Assembly: GCA_902778935.1 (NCBI GenBank)
Contig: CACYZT010000003.1
Span: 1-64,000, forward strand
Direction: 5' to 3'
Origin: an uncultured Bacteroidales bacterium
GTDB taxonomy: Bacteria; Bacteroidota; Bacteroidia; Bacteroidales; Paludibacteraceae
DNA length: 64,000 nucleotides
Part shown: positions 10,910 through 62,997 of the stretch, one piece after another
How the letters are laid out: each line of letters begins with the position of its first letter
Numbering within the stretch: position 1 is the first letter of the stretch
The notes under the pieces: generated by a model
What the model was told of the DNA's origin: nothing
Seen by the model: only the letters and a program-made list of their open reading frames with translations
Database searches by the model: none
Translations under genes and position numbers: made by a program

Positions 10910-11414
10910 TTGCCTATTGTGCCTTAACGCCAACGCGCTGATTATCAGTGTAGAAGGTTACGACGAAGTCCCTGAAGAAGGACTGGAGATAACCATTACC
11001 GAAGCACCTATCAATCCGCTGAGCGGTCTTCCACAAGTGGAACTGAAAGGCGGCATTGTGTGTGTTGCTCCGTTGACGGTGAATATCACCCGTTCGTCTG
11101 CCGGTCTGAGTGATGAGTTCTGTTTAGGACAATGTATTCCAGGTAATGGTCAGACAACAGAAACTCTGCAGTTTACGCCAAGCGGAATGGAAAGCTGGTA
11201 TGCCCATTACTCGCCCGTTCCGAATAGTCATGAGACCATCGTTTATACCTTTACGGATGCCAACGAGAGTCTGACTATCACCGTGCATTATTTCCTGGGA
11301 ACGGAAGGTATGGAAGAGGTTGACGGCGAACAGAAGAGCAGCACCGGCAAAAAAGTGCTGCGCGATGGTATTCTGTATATTGAGAAAAACAATAAAACAT
11401 ATACAATATTATGA
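10881..11414 (+). CDS. Small secreted protein of unknown function
   Basis: 177-aa exported protein. A signal peptide (MKKNILLAISCLLCLNANA) is followed by a compact domain with three cysteines (GIVCVAP and FCLGQC) that may carry a disulfide. The C-terminal tail (KVLRDGILYIEKNNKTYTI) resembles the short C-terminal tag seen on many secreted Bacteroidales proteins. It overlaps its upstream neighbour by 29 nt and its downstream neighbour by 4 nt (ATGA), so it is firmly part of the TlpA/Omp28 operon. I do not recognise the domain. Confidence 0.7.
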   Translation: MKKNILLAISCLLCLNANALIISVEGYDEVPEEGLEITITEAPINPLSGLPQVELKGGIVCVAPLTVNITRSSAGLSDEFCLGQCIPGNGQTTETLQFTPSGMESWYAHYSPVPNSHETIVYTFTDANESLTITVHYFLGTEGMEEVDGEQKSSTGKKVLRDGILYIEKNNKTYTIL

Positions 11415-12811
11415 AACGATTTATGATTGTAGCAGCCTTTGCTGCATTGTGCTTAACAGCCTGTAATGAACCAAGCGGTCCGATTCCCGAGTCGTTCCCC
11501 AAAAAACAACTCATTGAGGAGTTCACCGGACAATCGTGCGGTTATTGCCCGAACGGAATGGAATATATTCGTGAGTTTGTCGCGAATGACCCCAACTGGG
11601 TGTTGGTGCTGCACCACTACGGTTTTGCACAGGATAACTTTACTGTAGCAGGAAGCAAGACCATCACGGATGCCCTGAACGTAGATGGTGCACCGCAAAT
11701 GACCGTTAACCGCGCTGTTACCAAGACAGCTGATGGCAATGCGACCGTATTCCATCCGGCATACCTGGAGTATATGAGCAAGACGCAGTTTGACGCAACC
11801 ACCTATGCTTCGGTGGTGCTGGAGAACAGTTACGATGCCTCCACCCGTCAACTGAAGGTACATGTGAGTGGTGCGTTGGCGAAAGACGACTACCCTGCCC
11901 TCAAACTAACCGTGCTTGTCAAGGAGTCCGGCATGATTGATTATCAAGAAGACAAAATTTACTCATTCGCCGGTTGGAAAGAGTTCCGTCATGCGAATGC
12001 TGTTCGTGCGTTCCTGACCGACGCCAAGGGCGATGTGGTGACAGTCAAGAAGAACCGTTATTCGGCGGATTATACGCTCACTCTGAACAACAAATGGGTG
12101 GCGGAGAACTGCATGGTAGTAGCGTTCCTGAGCGAAGAGTTCAAACCGGTGGTTCAAGCCGAAGAAGCGCCTGTTGTAGCAGGTAGCAAAGGTGGAGCCG
12201 ACCTTGAGGCTAAAGGTATCACTCCTGTGCCTGTTTCCGACTATTTCCCTGAACCATCCGCCACGGCTGCCCCCAGTGATTACAGCGGCGCAGAGGCCGA
12301 TACGCTGACCTTTGCCACTTCCGGATATCAATACCTGCCGGAAAACGGATTTAACTATTGGACCATCATGGCCTATAATGCCAAAAAAACGGTCAAAGTA
12401 GGTAGCACCAAATGTGTGCCATTCGTTTATCTGTACTTGTTTACCGACCTCAATGCGGATACTATTCCTGCCGGCACCTATCCGCTCAATCAAACTGAGA
12501 CTGTCGGCACGGCGTTGGCGGGTAACAGAAATGACGAGAAGCAGCAGATTGACGGATGTCAATTCTACTACACCAGCCAATCGTATTTCAAGCAAGGTTA
12601 TCTCCAACCGTTAGCTGAATGGTTGATTGCAGACGGCACATTGACCGTCCGCACGGATGGATGGGAACTCATCGGTCATGCCCGTAACGGCGCAGATATT
12701 CATCTGGTGGGTACTGCCGCTATTCCGTCAGAAGGGAGGTTGAACGCTCCGAGAAAAGCACCGAAAGACTACCAAAAACCTCCGTTTGCAATAGTCGAAT
12801 ATGACAAATAA
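11411..12811 (+). CDS. Omp28-related outer-membrane lipoprotein
   Basis: 466-aa lipoprotein: lipobox CLTAC, then an Omp28/thioredoxin-like domain (QLIEEFTGQSCGYCPNGM, VLVLHHYGF, GAPQMTVNR) over about the first 250 residues. A C-terminal domain of about 200 residues with beta-strand character follows. The CGYC motif is a canonical redox-active or metal-binding pair. It ends the operon that begins with the TlpA-like gene; the next gene, pheT, has its own promoter fused to a terminator. The role is unknown. The repeated pairing of CxxC lipoproteins with a TlpA-like protein suggests an extracytoplasmic thiol relay, which is inference. Confidence 0.82.
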   Translation: MKRFMIVAAFAALCLTACNEPSGPIPESFPKKQLIEEFTGQSCGYCPNGMEYIREFVANDPNWVLVLHHYGFAQDNFTVAGSKTITDALNVDGAPQMTVNRAVTKTADGNATVFHPAYLEYMSKTQFDATTYASVVLENSYDASTRQLKVHVSGALAKDDYPALKLTVLVKESGMIDYQEDKIYSFAGWKEFRHANAVRAFLTDAKGDVVTVKKNRYSADYTLTLNNKWVAENCMVVAFLSEEFKPVVQAEEAPVVAGSKGGADLEAKGITPVPVSDYFPEPSATAAPSDYSGAEADTLTFATSGYQYLPENGFNYWTIMAYNAKKTVKVGSTKCVPFVYLYLFTDLNADTIPAGTYPLNQTETVGTALAGNRNDEKQQIDGCQFYYTSQSYFKQGYLQPLAEWLIADGTLTVRTDGWELIGHARNGADIHLVGTAAIPSEGRLNAPRKAPKDYQKPPFAIVEYDK

Positions 12812-12816
12812 ATTCA

Positions 12817-12855
12817 AAAAGTGGCATACGCTCTTGCGTATGTCATTTTTTTTTT
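12817..12855 (+). terminator. Intrinsic terminator fused to the pheT promoter
   Basis: A run of As precedes the stem TGGCATACGC (12822-12831), loop TCTT and GCGTATGTCA (12836-12845), followed by ten Ts. The 3' arm also contains the -33 box of the pheT promoter, and the T-run serves as the promoter spacer. It would end the Omp28 operon. Confidence 0.8.
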
Positions 12856-12864
12856 GTAATTTTG
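12834..12864 (+). promoter_or_regulatory. Promoter of pheT
   Basis: -33 TTGCGTATG (12834-12842), T-rich spacer, -7 TAATTTTG (12857-12864). It overlaps the terminator of the preceding operon. The leader to the pheT ATG is about 20 nt. Confidence 0.75.
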
Positions 12865-12890: not shown

Positions 12891-15368
12891 ATGAATATTT
12901 CCTATAATTGGTTAAAGCGCTATATCGCGCTGCAGGACGATGCAGAAACGGTAGCGAAAATTCTAACCTCTATCGGCCTCGAAGTAGGCACCGTAGAGAC
13001 AGTTGAGACGATTCGTGGCGGATTGAGAGGTTTGGTTGTTGGCGAAGTACTAAGTTGCGAACCGCACCCGAATTCAGACCATTTGCACATCACCAAAGTC
13101 AATATCGGCGAGGGCGAACCCTTGCCTATCGTGTGCGGTGCGCCGAACGTAGCTGCGGGACAAAAGGTTATTGTAGCGACTATCGGCACGGTGCTTTATG
13201 ACGGAGACCAGAGTTTTACGATCAAGAAAGGTAAACTGCGCGGCGAGGATTCGTTCGGTATGATTTGCGCAGAGGATGAGATAGGTGTGGGAACCGACCA
13301 CGCCGGTATTATCGTACTGCCTGCAGACACACCGGTAGGTATGAAAGCGGCTGATTACTACCATGTAGAGAACGATACCATCATTGAGGTGGATATTACT
13401 CCGAACCGCTCAGATGCCGCTTCGCATTTTGGTGTAGCGCGTGATCTGTATGCATACTATCAGGCTCACGGACAGAACGTGAAACTGACCAAACCGAGCG
13501 TAGAGGCTTTTGCGATAAACAGCCATGATTTGCCCATCTGTGTGCATGTGGATGCACCGGAGGCATGTCCTCGTTACACGGGTGTGAGCATCCAGGGAGT
13601 GACTATCAAGGAATCGCCCGAGTGGTTGAAGAACAGTTTGTTGGCGATAGGACTAAGGCCGATTAACAATGTGGTGGATGTGACGAACTTTGTGCTCCAT
13701 GAGTGCGGTCAAGCATTGCACGCTTTTGATGCCGATAAGATTAAGGGCAACGAGATACATGTGCGCATGGCTAAGCAGGGTGAGAAATTCGTTACGTTGG
13801 ACGGCGTAGAGCGCGAGATGAACGAACGCGACTTGATGATAGCCAACGCAGAGGAAGCGATGTGTATTGCCGGCGTGTTCGGAGGTCTTGACAGTGGTGT
13901 GACGGACAAAACGAAGAATGTGTTCCTTGAGAGCGCGTATTTCGACCCTGTGACCATTCGAAAAACCAGTCGTCGTCACCAATTACAGACCGATGCTTCG
14001 TTCCGATACGAGCGCGGTTGTGACCCCAATAATACATTATATGTGCTCAAACGTGCAGCACTGCTCATCCAAGAGGTAGCCGGCGGCAAGGTAGCTATGG
14101 AGATTACGGACAACGGGCAGAAGGTCTTCGAACCATGGCCGGTAACCATTGATATAGTTCGTGTTAATTCCTTAATAGGAAAGGCTATTGGAGAAGATAC
14201 GATTGAGACCATTCTCAAGGCGCTGGAGATAGAGATAGAGAGCAAAAATGGATCTGTTTGGCAACTCTGTGTTCCTCGGTACCGCGTAGATGTACAACGT
14301 GAATGCGATGTAGTCGAAGATATCTTGCGTCTATACGGATATGACAATGTTGAGTTCCCTGACAAACTGAATACCAGTTTGGCTTATGGCATCAAACCTG
14401 ATCCGGAAAGACTGCGTCGTAAGATATCCGAGCAACTGACTGCACAAGGATTTAACGAGATTCTCAATAACTCGCTGACCAAAGTATCGTACTACGAACC
14501 ACTGGAACAAATGCCATTGGCTCAGTGCGTGAAGATCATGAATCCGCTTAGTTCTGACCTCGGAGTGATGCGTCAAACCCTACTCTTTGGCGGACTCGAG
14601 TCTATTGCCCGTAATGCGAACCGCAAGAATAGCGACCTTAAGTTCTACGAGTTCGGTAACTGCTACCATTATAACGGGGAATTAAAGATTAAAAATGAAG
14701 AACTCATTAAGAATGACCCGTTAAAAGCATATAGCGAGGAAGCGCACCTCGGCTTATGGTTGACAGGAAACAAGACCGCCCTCAGTTGGGTTCGTAAGGA
14801 GGAGAAGACAACGTTCTATCAGCTCCATGCTTACGTAAACAATATTCTCACGCGTTTGGGCGTAGAGGTGGCCAAGATGACTATCGAGCGTCTGGAGAAC
14901 GAACTGTTCTCGGATGGTTTGGTTCTTAAAGCCGCTAACGGCAAAGCATTAGGTTATATTGGTATCGTTGGTCGCAAGCAACTCAAAGCCTTCGATATTG
15001 ACCAAGAGGTCTATTATGCTGACCTCGACTGGAATGCATTGCTTAAGCAAAACAAGCAATACAAGGCTGTTATTACCGACCTGCCGAAATATCCGGAAGT
15101 GAAGCGCGATTTCGCATTGTTGGTTGACCGCTCTGTTGAATTCGCAGACCTTGCGCGCGCTGCTTTCAGCGTAGAAAAGAAACTGCTGAAGAATGTGTTC
15201 CTGTTTGATGTCTATGAAGGAAAAAACCTCGAGGCGGGCAAGAAATCGTATGCTCTCTCGTTCATCCTTCAAGACCCGAACAACACGCTCAAAGACACAC
15301 AGATTGAAGCAGTGATGGAACGACTTAAGAAAACCTTTGAAACCCAATTCAATGCTACCCTCCGCTGA
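12891..15368 (+). CDS. pheT: Phenylalanyl-tRNA synthetase beta subunit
   Basis: Beta chain of the cytoplasmic alpha2beta2 enzyme that charges tRNA-Phe; 825 aa. The order is the EMAP/tRNA-binding domain (about residues 40-150, with PNSDHLHITKVN), the B3/B4 editing domain, B5, the catalytic-like core (LTPNRSDAA near residue 170, DASFRYERG near 365) and the C-terminal ferredoxin-fold anticodon-binding domain (FDVYEGKNLEAGKKSYALSF). A short Lys/Glu/Asn-rich stretch, ELKIKNEELIKN at about 600, is coded by AT-rich near-repeats and looks like an in-frame insertion. It is followed by an overlapping prfC. Confidence 0.97.
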   Translation: MNISYNWLKRYIALQDDAETVAKILTSIGLEVGTVETVETIRGGLRGLVVGEVLSCEPHPNSDHLHITKVNIGEGEPLPIVCGAPNVAAGQKVIVATIGTVLYDGDQSFTIKKGKLRGEDSFGMICAEDEIGVGTDHAGIIVLPADTPVGMKAADYYHVENDTIIEVDITPNRSDAASHFGVARDLYAYYQAHGQNVKLTKPSVEAFAINSHDLPICVHVDAPEACPRYTGVSIQGVTIKESPEWLKNSLLAIGLRPINNVVDVTNFVLHECGQALHAFDADKIKGNEIHVRMAKQGEKFVTLDGVEREMNERDLMIANAEEAMCIAGVFGGLDSGVTDKTKNVFLESAYFDPVTIRKTSRRHQLQTDASFRYERGCDPNNTLYVLKRAALLIQEVAGGKVAMEITDNGQKVFEPWPVTIDIVRVNSLIGKAIGEDTIETILKALEIEIESKNGSVWQLCVPRYRVDVQRECDVVEDILRLYGYDNVEFPDKLNTSLAYGIKPDPERLRRKISEQLTAQGFNEILNNSLTKVSYYEPLEQMPLAQCVKIMNPLSSDLGVMRQTLLFGGLESIARNANRKNSDLKFYEFGNCYHYNGELKIKNEELIKNDPLKAYSEEAHLGLWLTGNKTALSWVRKEEKTTFYQLHAYVNNILTRLGVEVAKMTIERLENELFSDGLVLKAANGKALGYIGIVGRKQLKAFDIDQEVYYADLDWNALLKQNKQYKAVITDLPKYPEVKRDFALLVDRSVEFADLARAAFSVEKKLLKNVFLFDVYEGKNLEAGKKSYALSFILQDPNNTLKDTQIEAVMERLKKTFETQFNATLR

Positions 15369-38350: not shown

Positions 38351-38381
38351 TTGTGTATGTCATATTTTTTTAGTACCTTTG
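38351..38381 (+). promoter_or_regulatory. Promoter of the Dabb-mtaB pair
   Basis: -33 TTGTGTATG (38351-38359) and -7 TACCTTTG (38374-38381). The -33 box is the TTGyGTATG variant seen in the terminator-fused promoters, here without the stem. Confidence 0.75.
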
Positions 38382-60449: not shown

Positions 60450-60923
60450 GAGGTTAGCCATACGGATGGCGGTAACTGCGCCTTCGATACCTTTATTGCC
60501 CAGTTTGCCGCCACAGCGGTCAAGCGCCTGCTGCTTGTTGAGGACAGTAAGGACGGAGAAGATAACCGGCACTTTGCCTTGCGCATTGAGGAAAGCGATG
60601 CCTTGCGTCACGGACTGGCATACATAATCGAAATGCGGTGTATCGCCCTGAATCACACAGCCGATGACGACCAGGGCATTCACGCGTTCCTCTCTAAGGA
60701 TACGTGCTGCTCCGTATGTCAGTTCAACTGCTCCCGGGACATGGATGACATCGATATTATCCTCCGGCACGCCCTGTTTGATAAACGTATCGACCGCACC
60801 CTGCGCCATGGCGTAGGTGATTTCGCTATTCCAGTCCGCTACCACAATTGCATAGCGCTGACGTTCGAGAACATCAGCGCTAGGCAGTAGAGAGCTGTCA
60901 TATTTGGACAGGTCCGTTGTCAT
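60447..60923 (-). CDS. ribH: 6,7-dimethyl-8-ribityllumazine synthase
   Basis: 158-aa capsid-forming enzyme of riboflavin synthesis that joins the RibBA product DHBP with the pyrimidine precursor. VVADWNSEITYAM, HVPGAVELTYGA, VIGCVIQGDTPHFDYV and catalytic His are standard. It lies one base after the TPR gene, and its stop codon touches the 15-bp tandem repeat. Confidence 0.96.
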   Translation of the reverse strand: MTTDLSKYDSSLLPSADVLERQRYAIVVADWNSEITYAMAQGAVDTFIKQGVPEDNIDVIHVPGAVELTYGAARILREERVNALVVIGCVIQGDTPHFDYVCQSVTQGIAFLNAQGKVPVIFSVLTVLNKQQALDRCGGKLGNKGIEGAVTAIRMANL

Positions 60924-61603
60924 TACTCAGCGATAGCGATGTATTTGTCGATATCCTGTGCTTCCGCGGAAGCCGGGTAGTCAGCCTTGATAGCCTTGAA
61001 TGCCTTCAGCGCTTTGGATTTCTGGCCCTCGTGCAGATAGACGAGACCCGCTTTCTTCAAGCTCATCGGAGCAATCATCTCGTTGCCGGACTCAGCAGCG
61101 GACTCGAAAGCCTTAGCAGCCTTGCCGTACTCACCGAGCTCTACATAAGCGTCACCCAAGAGCTGACGCGCAGCGGGATCGATATTGAGGTCGTCCGCAT
61201 CGAATTTCTTGAGATACTTAGCAGCCTCTTCGTACTCGCCCTTCTCGAAATAGCAGATACCTGCGTAGAGCGCAGCGAGCTCGCCCTGCTGGTTGTGGTA
61301 CTCGTCCGCGATAGCCTCAAAGCCCATGCACTCAGCGTCGTCACCTTGGAGCGCCTTGTCATAGTCGCCCGCCATGAAATAAACGACAGCCTTGGCATTC
61401 TCATTACTTGCCTCGAGCGCCTTGGGCTTAATCACATAGTTGTTGATAGCGATAACAGCCATCACCACGATAGCAATACCGCAGACAATCCAACTGATGA
61501 GATTAGCGTTGTCTTCAATCCATTTACCTGCGCCGGTCAGCGCTTCATTAACTTCTTGCAATTGTTCGTCCTGTTTAACGAACTCTTCTTTCTTTTTTGC
61601 CAT
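60923..61603 (-). CDS. TPR protein with one membrane anchor (YfgM-like)
   Basis: 226-aa protein: a short charged N-terminus, a transmembrane segment (LISWIVCGIAIVVMAVIAI, about residues 35-53), then TPR-like repeats (AALYAGICYFEKGEYEEAAKYL, DAYVELGEYGKAAKAFESA, GLVYLHEGQKSKALKAFKAI). YfgM-like proteins assist secretion or cell-envelope chaperones in other bacteria; the role here is unknown. It heads the operon to manA and is driven by the terminator-fused promoter at 61654-61684. Confidence 0.8.
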   Translation of the reverse strand: MAKKKEEFVKQDEQLQEVNEALTGAGKWIEDNANLISWIVCGIAIVVMAVIAINNYVIKPKALEASNENAKAVVYFMAGDYDKALQGDDAECMGFEAIADEYHNQQGELAALYAGICYFEKGEYEEAAKYLKKFDADDLNIDPAARQLLGDAYVELGEYGKAAKAFESAAESGNEMIAPMSLKKAGLVYLHEGQKSKALKAFKAIKADYPASAEAQDIDKYIAIAE

Positions 61604-61653: not shown

Positions 61654-61684
61654 CAAAGTTACAAAAAAAAAACGACATACACAA
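61654..61684 (-). promoter_or_regulatory. Promoter of the TPR-ribH-lysC operon
   Basis: Minus strand -33 TTGTGTATG (61676-61684) and -7 TAACTTTG (61654-61661), sharing its -33 box with a terminator stem. Confidence 0.78.
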
Positions 61685-61696
61685 GGGTGTATGCCA
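61663..61696 (-). terminator. Intrinsic terminator of the PAP2 gene fused to the next promoter
   Basis: Minus strand stem TGGCATACAC, loop CCTT, GTGTATGTCG, then ten Ts. It starts 8 nt after the PAP2 stop codon. Confidence 0.82.
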
Positions 61697-61703
61697 TTTT
61701 TCT

Positions 61704-62414
61704 TTATTTTTTGCATTTTTTCTTGAATTCCTTTTGTGCTTTCTCGAGTTGCTTGAGGTATGCTTTGCTGGTATGGAGGCGAGCAAAGGCGGCGCTTGCC
61801 ACCACACGTGCGGCATCGACATCGCTCTGCCAGTGGAAGCCGGCGATGACGCGGCTCTGACCATATTCGAAGCCTTCTTTGAGGATAGCATCTTGGGCCT
61901 CCGGATAGATCTCGCAAAGGATGAGCGCGGTGGTCCAGCCGAGCGTTGTATGTCCGGACGGATACGAACCGTTATGGCTCAGTTCCTCTTCATCTTCGGG
62001 GACCAAAGTCGGTTCATGGAAGACCATATACGGGCGTTTGCGCATGTATGTATTTTTGGCACTATCGCACGCGTAATGGGCGGTTTTGTTAGCATCCTTG
62101 AGCAGTTTCCACAGTTCGGGCGTGTTGGCCTTGGATATCTCGATGCCCACTATCGGCGAGAAGATAACCGCCATTCGGTCGATGCTATACTCGGCATCCA
62201 GACGCGCTTTCTCTCCTCTGGGCGTCGGACGCATCCGTTTGCCCCACTGGTACTGCGCCGTGTCGTAAGCGTAGCGCATCTCGTTGGTTTGCGGCGGTCC
62301 GGGCAAGTAGTGGAGCGCGTTGGGCATTTCCGGCGATGTGAAATACGGATGTGCCTTCGCCATCAATCCAAGCGACAGCACCAAAAACGGAAGGATAAGA
62401 CAGATTTTTTTCAT
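61704..62414 (-). CDS. PAP2-family acid phosphatase (class A-like)
   Basis: 236-aa exported phosphatase. A signal peptide (MKKICLILPFLVLSLGLMAKA) is followed by the PAP2 motifs KNTYMRKRPY, SYPSGHTTLGW and SRVIAGFHWQSDVDAAR, which form the Lys/Arg, Ser-Gly-His and Arg-His-Asp catalytic set. This matches periplasmic nonspecific acid phosphatases of the PhoN type. The C-terminal tail is Lys-rich. Promoter at 62446-62476, terminator directly downstream. Confidence 0.92.
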   Translation of the reverse strand: MKKICLILPFLVLSLGLMAKAHPYFTSPEMPNALHYLPGPPQTNEMRYAYDTAQYQWGKRMRPTPRGEKARLDAEYSIDRMAVIFSPIVGIEISKANTPELWKLLKDANKTAHYACDSAKNTYMRKRPYMVFHEPTLVPEDEEELSHNGSYPSGHTTLGWTTALILCEIYPEAQDAILKEGFEYGQSRVIAGFHWQSDVDAARVVASAAFARLHTSKAYLKQLEKAQKEFKKKCKK

Positions 62415-62997
62415 ATAAACAAGTGTTTTTAGTCAAATTCGGGTGCAAAGGTACAACTTTTTTGCGACATACGCAAGAGTGTACGCATTTTTTGTCGGTC
62501 GAAACGGGTTCGAAAGTGACTCCTTGCGAGGCTTGATAAGCGGCTCTAAGTGCGCTATATATGGTAGTATAGACGAAGGAGAAAAAATGCGGATATTGTT
62601 TCTTGTCCGGTTCGGGGTTAATGAGCTGTGCCAAGAACCGAGTACGCCACTCTAAGGAGGCAGACGAGTGATCGCTCTCAATGTCGTGGGCTTGTCGCTG
62701 AGCAAGTTTGATAAGTTCGCGGTTGGCTTGACAAGCGTCGGACCAATGGGTGGGGAAATGGTAAGTGTAGAGTTCGTGCAATCCCAGATGATGTCTGGAA
62801 GGGCGCACGACGATGCGTGCGCGGCGTTTCTGACCGGACTTGACGGTGTCTAAGGCACCACGGATAGAGGTAATGAACGAGCATGTGGTAAAATACTTCG
62901 TACCTCGTGCCGGTCGAAGAGCTGCGGGACGGCGAACCGTTTCGCCCAAATAGGCGTTAATAGCCGCCAAAATGATAGATTTTTGATGTTTTGCCAT
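62185..62997 (-). CDS. Conserved Bacteroidales protein of unknown function, with apparent readthrough
   Basis: The open frame codes 270 aa. Roughly the first 165 residues look like a conserved Bacteroidales protein of unknown function, with TKYFTTCSFITSIRGALDT, RIVVRPSRHHLGLHELYTYH and FPTHWSDACQANRELIKLAQ. After about 62500 the frame continues without a stop through the terminator/promoter of the PAP2 gene and 230 nt into it, and the sequence no longer looks protein-like. A lost stop codon, a frameshift or a sequencing error is likely. It has its own promoter and a leader shared with 7813-7934. Confidence 0.55.
   Translation of the reverse strand: MAKHQKSIILAAINAYLGETVRRPAALRPARGTKYFTTCSFITSIRGALDTVKSGQKRRARIVVRPSRHHLGLHELYTYHFPTHWSDACQANRELIKLAQRQAHDIESDHSSASLEWRTRFLAQLINPEPDKKQYPHFFSFVYTTIYSALRAAYQASQGVTFEPVSTDKKCVHSCVCRKKVVPLHPNLTKNTCLYEKNLSYPSVFGAVAWIDGEGTSVFHIAGNAQRAPLLARTAANQRDALRLRHGAVPVGQTDASDAQRRESASGCRV
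62446..62476 (-). promoter_or_regulatory. Promoter of the PAP2 phosphatase gene
   Basis: Minus strand -33 TTGCGTATG (62468-62476) and -7 TACCTTTG (62446-62453). A partly paired stem (TGCGTACAC / GCGTATGTCGCA) overlaps it, a weaker version of the terminator-promoter fusion. Confidence 0.72.

Follow-up and report, generated by a model that had tools for sequence, protein, structure and literature searches.

Probable intrinsic terminators that share their 3' arm with an extended -33 promoter box in a genus of Paludibacteraceae

In a genus of gut Bacteroidales, the end of one gene and the promoter of the next often appear to be written in the same letters. Judged from sequence, the elements described here are very probably intrinsic (Rho-independent) terminators of an upstream co-directional gene into which the following gene's promoter is built, the 3' arm of the stem being also the -33 box and the U-tract being also the promoter spacer. 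The box and its spacing are conserved, the 5' arm is complementary to the box, and stem, T-tract and gene direction are associated with one another. The analysis concerned the window, a stretch of 64,000 nucleotides from an uncultured bacterium of the Paludibacteraceae, together with the rest of its genome, its congeners, other genomes of the order and titled loci found by matching.

Junctions in the window

The first junction lies between an Omp28-domain gene and pheT (Table 1). Five bases past the stop of the former begins a stem of 16 pairs (12816-12851) around the loop TCTT (12832-12835), which folds at -20.8 kcal/mol, a value that none of 200 shuffles equalled (z -9.6). The motif TTGCGTATG occupies 12834-12842, and the extended box TTGCGTATGT, largely inside the 3' arm, is followed by CA, ten T, a G, TAATTTTG and then pheT, whose transcript would start at about 12869 from the placement of the TAnnTTTG element at -12 to -5 (PMC9723704). 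The original prediction had described this layout, a stem after the Omp28-domain gene with its 3' arm as the -33 box of pheT and its T-run as the spacer; the letters bear it out on direct reading, while termination itself is presumed from the fold.

The same design, with both arms changed together as had been claimed, recurs on the minus strand at 61654-61702 as GGCATACAC-CCTT-GTGTATGTC, between a PAP2 gene, whose stop at 61704 directly precedes it, and a TPR gene (60923-61603); it folds at -18.1 kcal/mol (z -7.2), and 0 of 200 shuffles do as well. At both sites a stable predicted RNA hairpin follows the end of a co-directional gene and runs directly into a U-tract, as expected of an intrinsic terminator. 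A further site, at 62446-62490, had been put forward as a weaker copy of the stem and lacks these marks: an A-run forms its spacer, its fold is equalled by 11 of 200 shuffles (z -1.6), and the proposed arms hold an A.C mismatch. What stands there is a promoter with no convincing terminator. A frame of 270 open codons (62185-62997, minus strand) crosses this promoter into the PAP2 gene; it has no Pfam match and is probably not a gene. Within the window, no Rfam match and no tRNA were found.

Since the two copies stand at unrelated genes, the joint C/T and G/A difference between them is covariation between loci and not a compensatory change traced by descent, and no full double switch between orthologues occurs among the 8 gene families having more than one stem. 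Two copies made a weak argument for selection on the stem, which is supported by the sequences of many gene families: 61 closed-loop stems in different families, stems at other boxes, and the effect of flipping the Y position, all described below.

Taken alone, the stem pattern does not rise above chance. In the window, 8 matches with up to three mismatches compare with 5.2 expected (16 of 100 shuffles reach 8), and 38 boxes with one mismatch compare with 30.7 expected, neither being significant; across the whole genome, 14 and 14 stem patterns with up to two mismatches are not above the 13 and 19 of the reversed control. With at most one mismatch the genome has ten distinct places, eight of them on promoter boxes at fixed spacing. 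Because the stem and loose-box statistics were not significant, the test was instead made on promoter boxes lying at a fixed distance from the -7 element.

Table 1. Features of the junctions in the window, and loci with stems at other boxes
Feature	Position	Strand	Basis
Omp28-domain gene	11411..12811	+	Open reading frame; Pfam Omp28, E 5.8e-21; stop at 12811; gene preceding the stem
Putative terminator stem, 5' arm (A-tract + GTGGCATACGC)	12816..12831	+	16 pairs, loop of 4; -20.8 kcal/mol, z -9.55
Putative terminator stem, 3' arm; overlaps promoter -33 box and start of T-tract	12836..12851	+	Pairing, fold
Extended -33 box of pheT, TTGCGTATGT	12834..12843	+	42 genome copies, all at the same distance from TAnnTTTG; none of the reversed pattern
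T-tract, putative terminator U-tract and promoter spacer	12846..12855	+	Direct reading; stems associate with T-tract spacers
-7 element TAATTTTG	12857..12864	+	Direct reading and genome pattern search
pheT	12891..15368	+	Open reading frame; Pfam B3_4, B5, tRNA_synthFbeta, FDX-ACB
Fourth window box TTGTGTATGT, T-run spacer	38351..38381	+	Nearest upstream open reading frame called divergent; box stem absent (-3.5 kcal/mol)
Second putative stem, 5' arm (read 61702 to 61687)	61687..61702	-	Fold, -18.1 kcal/mol, z -7.23
Second putative stem, 3' arm	61667..61682	-	Fold
Promoter of the TPR gene (60923-61603), TTGTGTATGTCG-T10-G-TAACTTTG	61654..61684	-	Genome pattern search
Promoter of the PAP2 gene, TTGCGTATGTCGC-A6-GTTG-TACCTTTG	62446..62476	-	Pattern search; A-run spacer, weak upstream pairing, z -1.63, not terminator-like
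Stems at other boxes	L198, L283, L051, L306, two in L308		T-tract promoters

A rigid promoter with an extended -33 box

In the genome, TTGNGTATG placed 14 nt before TANNTTTG (TAnnTTTG) has 42 sites, far above chance, and the reversed pattern has none. When gaps of 12-16 are allowed, the gap is 14 at all 42 sites, 41 of which carry Y at the N; the one with G for Y falls outside the pattern used below. The spacing is equally fixed where the box is not required: a sample of 300,879 nt from the own genome, made up of contig C3, on which the window lies, plus 120 kb of C2, holds 114 TANNTTTGC sites, and at 55 of them TTG precedes TA by exactly 23 nt, against 0-4 sites for each of the remaining offsets in the range 17-29. 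A common promoter of the genus is a rigid block of an extended -33 box of the general form TTGCATATNT, an A- or T-tract, and GTAnnTTTGC, in which 20 nt separate TTG from TA. TTGYGTATGT is one variant of this more general box with its A- or T-tract spacer; among 73 promoters the variants are GCATATA (16), GCATATT (6), GCGTATG (5), GTGTATG (4), GCATATG (4), GGTCAAT (3) and others. The form with TTGCATATNTS, an A- or T-tract and GTAnnTTTGC, again with exactly 20 nt from TTG to TA, is seen in the window, for example, with its TA at about 8004, 29579, 29821 and 53572 (plus strand).

A first sample had the box in 12 of 12 congeners, at 1 to 40 copies, and in 0 of 8 genomes of other families, with one control hit. 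Among 393 genomes of the order, the own genome had 38 copies, two congeners 69 and 13, ten others one each and 380 none, the control again giving one hit. In seven congeners, a looser form (TTGNNNANNT, 12 N, GTANYTTTGC) has 51 to 342 copies; three sister genera have 0, 3 and 6 of it, and the controls 0 or 1. Of 101 genomes of the genus, 68 contain the version with a T-tract. Among the matches listed in a separate scan (at least 118 titled loci, which make up the titled-locus set), 106 are titled Paludibacteraceae or Bacteroidales, many of them from ruminants.

The TAnnTTTG -7 element and the TTG near -33 of the Bacteroidota sigma-A promoter are both present; a variable spacer and a short -33 element, which mark the Bacteroides type, are not, the spacing being fixed and the box extended. 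We file the promoter of the genus as a variant of the Bacteroidota sigma-A promoter, with sigma-A presumably recognising the box. When sigma-A of three congeners was aligned with six sequences drawn from five further genomes, the congeners stood apart from five of these sequences at four positions; no sigma-A match was found in G478. Two of the four positions lie towards the C-terminal region 4. A change in sigma-A was considered as the source of the extended box; the alignment gives no clear cause and nothing decisive.

Two other elements were seen beside these promoters. A distinct box family, TTGGTCAATT / TTGGTCATGT, has the same spacing and often the spacer CAAAAAAAAGCAG; it stands on the own contig C3 at about 19497 and 158477 (plus strand) and also in G478 and G007. 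Further, a CpG-rich alternating element such as TGCGTGCGCGC lies directly 5' of TTG with an A-run before it, and the nearest upstream open reading frame is often called divergent; it occurs at L003, L006 (plus-strand site), L054, L069, L112, L115 and L125, and on the own contig C2 at about 109,400.

Stems, spacers and gene context

The further copies anticipated by the original prediction are there: a T-tract spacer is present at 18 of the 41 promoter sites analysed in the own genome, and 11 of these 18 carry the stem. The full comparison covers 279 distinct sites, namely these 41, 82 from the titled loci L072-L151, 42 from the titled loci L152-L189 and 114 from other congeners; most of the last group were chosen for their T-tract, which makes the overall ratio of T to A meaningless. 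Three sites near a locus start or with N, and identical 71-nt copies, were dropped; related genomes are pooled, and some titled records duplicate sampled genomes. Stems reach the box at 105 of 184 T-tract sites, 10 of 87 A-tract sites and 2 of 8 others. Where a co-directional open reading frame ends at most 80 nt upstream, the figures are 55 of 66 for T-tracts and 0 of 21 for A-tracts, and with a divergent frame within 80 nt T-tract sites have stems at 8 of 22. Without the loci chosen for T, stems occur at 39 of 83 T-tract and 9 of 82 A-tract sites (20 of 25 against 0 of 21 near a co-directional end).

Gene direction separates the T-tract sites themselves, the nearest frame being co-directional, divergent or absent at 80, 21 and 4 stems and at 31, 43 and 5 non-stems (Fisher p 6e-7, co-directional against divergent). 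By a second context rule, which asks for a tRNA or for a co-directional frame of 60 codons that ends no more than 100 nt away, T-tract stems number 79 of 114 in context against 26 of 70 outside, and A-tract stems 2 of 42 against 8 of 45. Exceptions exist on both sides: 79 of the 184 T-tract sites have no stem, and at 21 of the 105 T-tract stems the nearest frame is called divergent, a call made by crude recognition of open reading frames. One such "divergent" case, at position 882 of the own contig C5, follows two same-strand tRNA genes, the nearer of which ends 88 nt upstream.

Seven loci set apart by their titles (three Prevotellaceae, one Prevotella, Capnocytophaga, Muribaculaceae and one titled only Bacteroidia) were kept in the context, register, family and covariation counts and omitted from the swap and Y-flip tests; without them, stems stand at 104 of 183 T-tract and 10 of 81 A-tract sites. 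L165 and L181 (titles such as Prevotellaceae or Muribaculaceae) and L184 (Colicola) were kept in all counts. From the other direction, strong hairpins followed by T6 run into TANNTTTG within 5 nt at 5 of 13 places in the own sample and at 0 of 12 in G339, 0 of 9 in G332 and 0 of 22 in G163, the last two being sister genera; the samples are small (300,000, 83,832 and 147,612 nt outside the genus), and the reversed control gave 0 in all four.

Some A-tract promoters after a co-directional gene are preceded by a separate terminator, as judged by eye, whose T-run stops at the box (L118, L113, L178). G+C-rich separate terminators, looped by TTCG or GAAA and with their T-run just upstream of the promoter box or abutting it, were likewise seen by eye at L061, L101, L113, L118 and L178; L061 and L118 have CGCTCTTCGGGGCG in common.

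The 5' arm follows the box

Pairing between the upstream segment and the box has one dominant register, found at 80 of 184 T-tract sites against 6 when the upstream segment was shuffled (one shuffle per site). All five GTATG positions are paired in 81 stems (73 T-tract, 7 A-tract, 1 neither), which spread over 69 downstream gene families; 69 of the 81 are closed at the guanine of TTG, or 61 when one is taken per family. In these 61, the arm base and the Y of the box form G-C in 29, A-T in 20, A-C in 7, G-T in 2 and other pairs in 3, a covariation with Fisher p 8e-8 over the four main pair types. When only Y was flipped, in a second set of 69, the native stem was more stable in 58, equal in 1 and less stable in 10.

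Moreover, the arm differs where the box differs. At six T-tract promoters with other boxes (Table 1), 8 or 9 of 9 positions are paired, against a mean of 1.0 and a maximum of 4 with swapped upstream segments; examples are ATGACACATA with TATGTGTCAT (L198) and AAGCACACTA with TAGTGTGCTT (L283). Mean energies of native against swapped upstream segments are -9.57 against -8.07 kcal/mol at YGTATGT T-tract sites and -5.08 against -3.91 at other T-tract sites, and in the two A-tract classes -4.86 against -4.84 and -3.53 against -3.70. A point on the other side is that, at YGTATGT T-tract sites, 67 good stems are native against a swapped mean of 57.7 and maximum of 65, the swap costing little because arms and boxes there are much alike. 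In G453, 10 of 18 listed T-tract spacers start with CGTTTT in place of the usual CATTTT, possibly a lineage drift of the stem base.

Box positions 9-12 had no part in the selection of stems, and over one stem per family (69) they hold 174 Watson-Crick pairs, 68 G.U, 2 A.C and 32 others; opposite the T of position 9, all 81 stems have a purine in the 5' arm, G in 48 and A in 33. The box would be held as promoter DNA and the free 5' arm only by pairing in RNA, which would explain why the arm has G.U wobbles and tracks the variants of the box.

Alternative explanations

An inverted repeat over a -33 box could also be the operator of a dimeric transcription factor, recognised on DNA, and the near-palindromic shape with one dominant register across the box would suit it. 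So would the Y position, which departs from the rule of pairing in RNA and not in DNA, with 7 A.C against 2 G.U mispairs in the 61 stems. The outer mispairs speak the other way, since an operator predicts indifference between G.U and A.C and the 69 families hold 68 of the former and 2 of the latter; moreover, the stems accompany a T-tract and a co-directional gene end, different boxes have different complementary arms, and loops of 4, 6 and 8 occur. We regard an operator as hardly credible. That the copies are instead one mobile or duplicated MITE-like cassette of stem and promoter, owing their likeness and covariation to descent, is only slightly less improbable. The commonest arm, near AAAAAGTGGCATACRC, does recur at many loci with the same G.U wobble, but the likeness stops at stem and promoter, the flanks of 42 own sites differing by eye; stems concentrate in co-directional T-tract contexts while the same promoter also occurs without them; and there are several arms and whole stems of different sequence.

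A third account is compatible with fused terminators and denies only an added function: compact neighbours share letters as mere economy, pairing being selected for termination and the sharing bringing no benefit. The median distance from stop to box, 38 nt at 79 T-tract stems, agrees with such compactness, as do the separate terminators directly before the box noted above by eye (L118, L178, L113). Its chances seem to us evenly balanced.

Proposed mechanism and its meaning

Where a co-directional upstream gene ends nearby, an arm complementary to the box often precedes it, and under the preferred reading of a terminator fused with a promoter, the T-tract spacer of the promoter, with which stems are associated, would serve as the U-tract. 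Transcription arriving from upstream would let the RNA fold with the transcript of the box as 3' arm, and RNA polymerase would release in the spacer, about 15 nt ahead of the next start site; that start would lie about 12 nt past the beginning of TAnnTTTG and use sigma-A. It is conceivable, though unlikely, that the arrangement is a hand-off device, in which the polymerase finishing the upstream RNA sits on the next promoter with its active site some 15 nt before the start and is re-used with sigma, coupling expression of the next gene to completed upstream transcription. If so, the rigid promoter of the genus would make the placement of the polymerase exact and repeatable.

One stretch of DNA would here be a promoter and, in the upstream transcript, an RNA hairpin, with constraints that can be separated, one arm being held and the other free. 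Such junctions offer many natural, graded test objects for asking if initiation at a promoter is blocked or fed by termination over it. They also show a promoter so stereotyped within one gut Bacteroidales genus that terminators appear to be built on it, and they suggest that where annotation calls one element alone, its partner will be missed.

Comparison with known systems

Neither ingredient is new in itself, as terminator-promoter overlap is already known from Salmonella operon pairs (PMC7055797), and terminators of Bacillus cereus are known to undergo compensatory change (PMC5381666). At Salmonella tufB-secE, an inter-operon terminator is reported to overlap the promoter of the following operon, to have a role in expression and to carry a fitness cost if interrupted (PMC7055797); the elements described here would share this overlap of one operon's end with the next one's promoter. 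However, the Salmonella account names a few core operon pairs, whereas stems here stand at 69 downstream gene families of the sampled genomes and covary, a comparison at the level of description. Among open-licence literature, as judged by titles and abstracts, no description was found of this layout in Bacteroidota, in which the -33 box and the spacer of a rigid genus-specific promoter recurrently double as 3' arm and U-tract; the words terminator, promoter and overlap do not occur in the text of PMC8046335.

The canonical sigma-ABfr promoter of Bacteroides, with TAnnTTTG at -7 and TTTG at -33, shares with the present promoter the -7 element and the TTG at about -33, but is described with a variable spacer and a short -33 element, whereas the spacing here is fixed and the box extends over some ten positions (PMC7366714). 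Intrinsic terminators of Bacillus cereus undergo compensatory pair switches with G.U as the most frequent intermediate, and the stems here have pair switches and G.U alike; those are ordinary terminators, whereas here one arm doubles as a promoter box (PMC5381666). Finally, RNA polymerase has been reported to stay on DNA after a terminator and to be able to restart (PMC6978322, PMC6978380). That work is single-molecule and live-cell and describes restart as usually in reverse, and its abstract says nothing of overlap with a forward promoter (PMC6978322).
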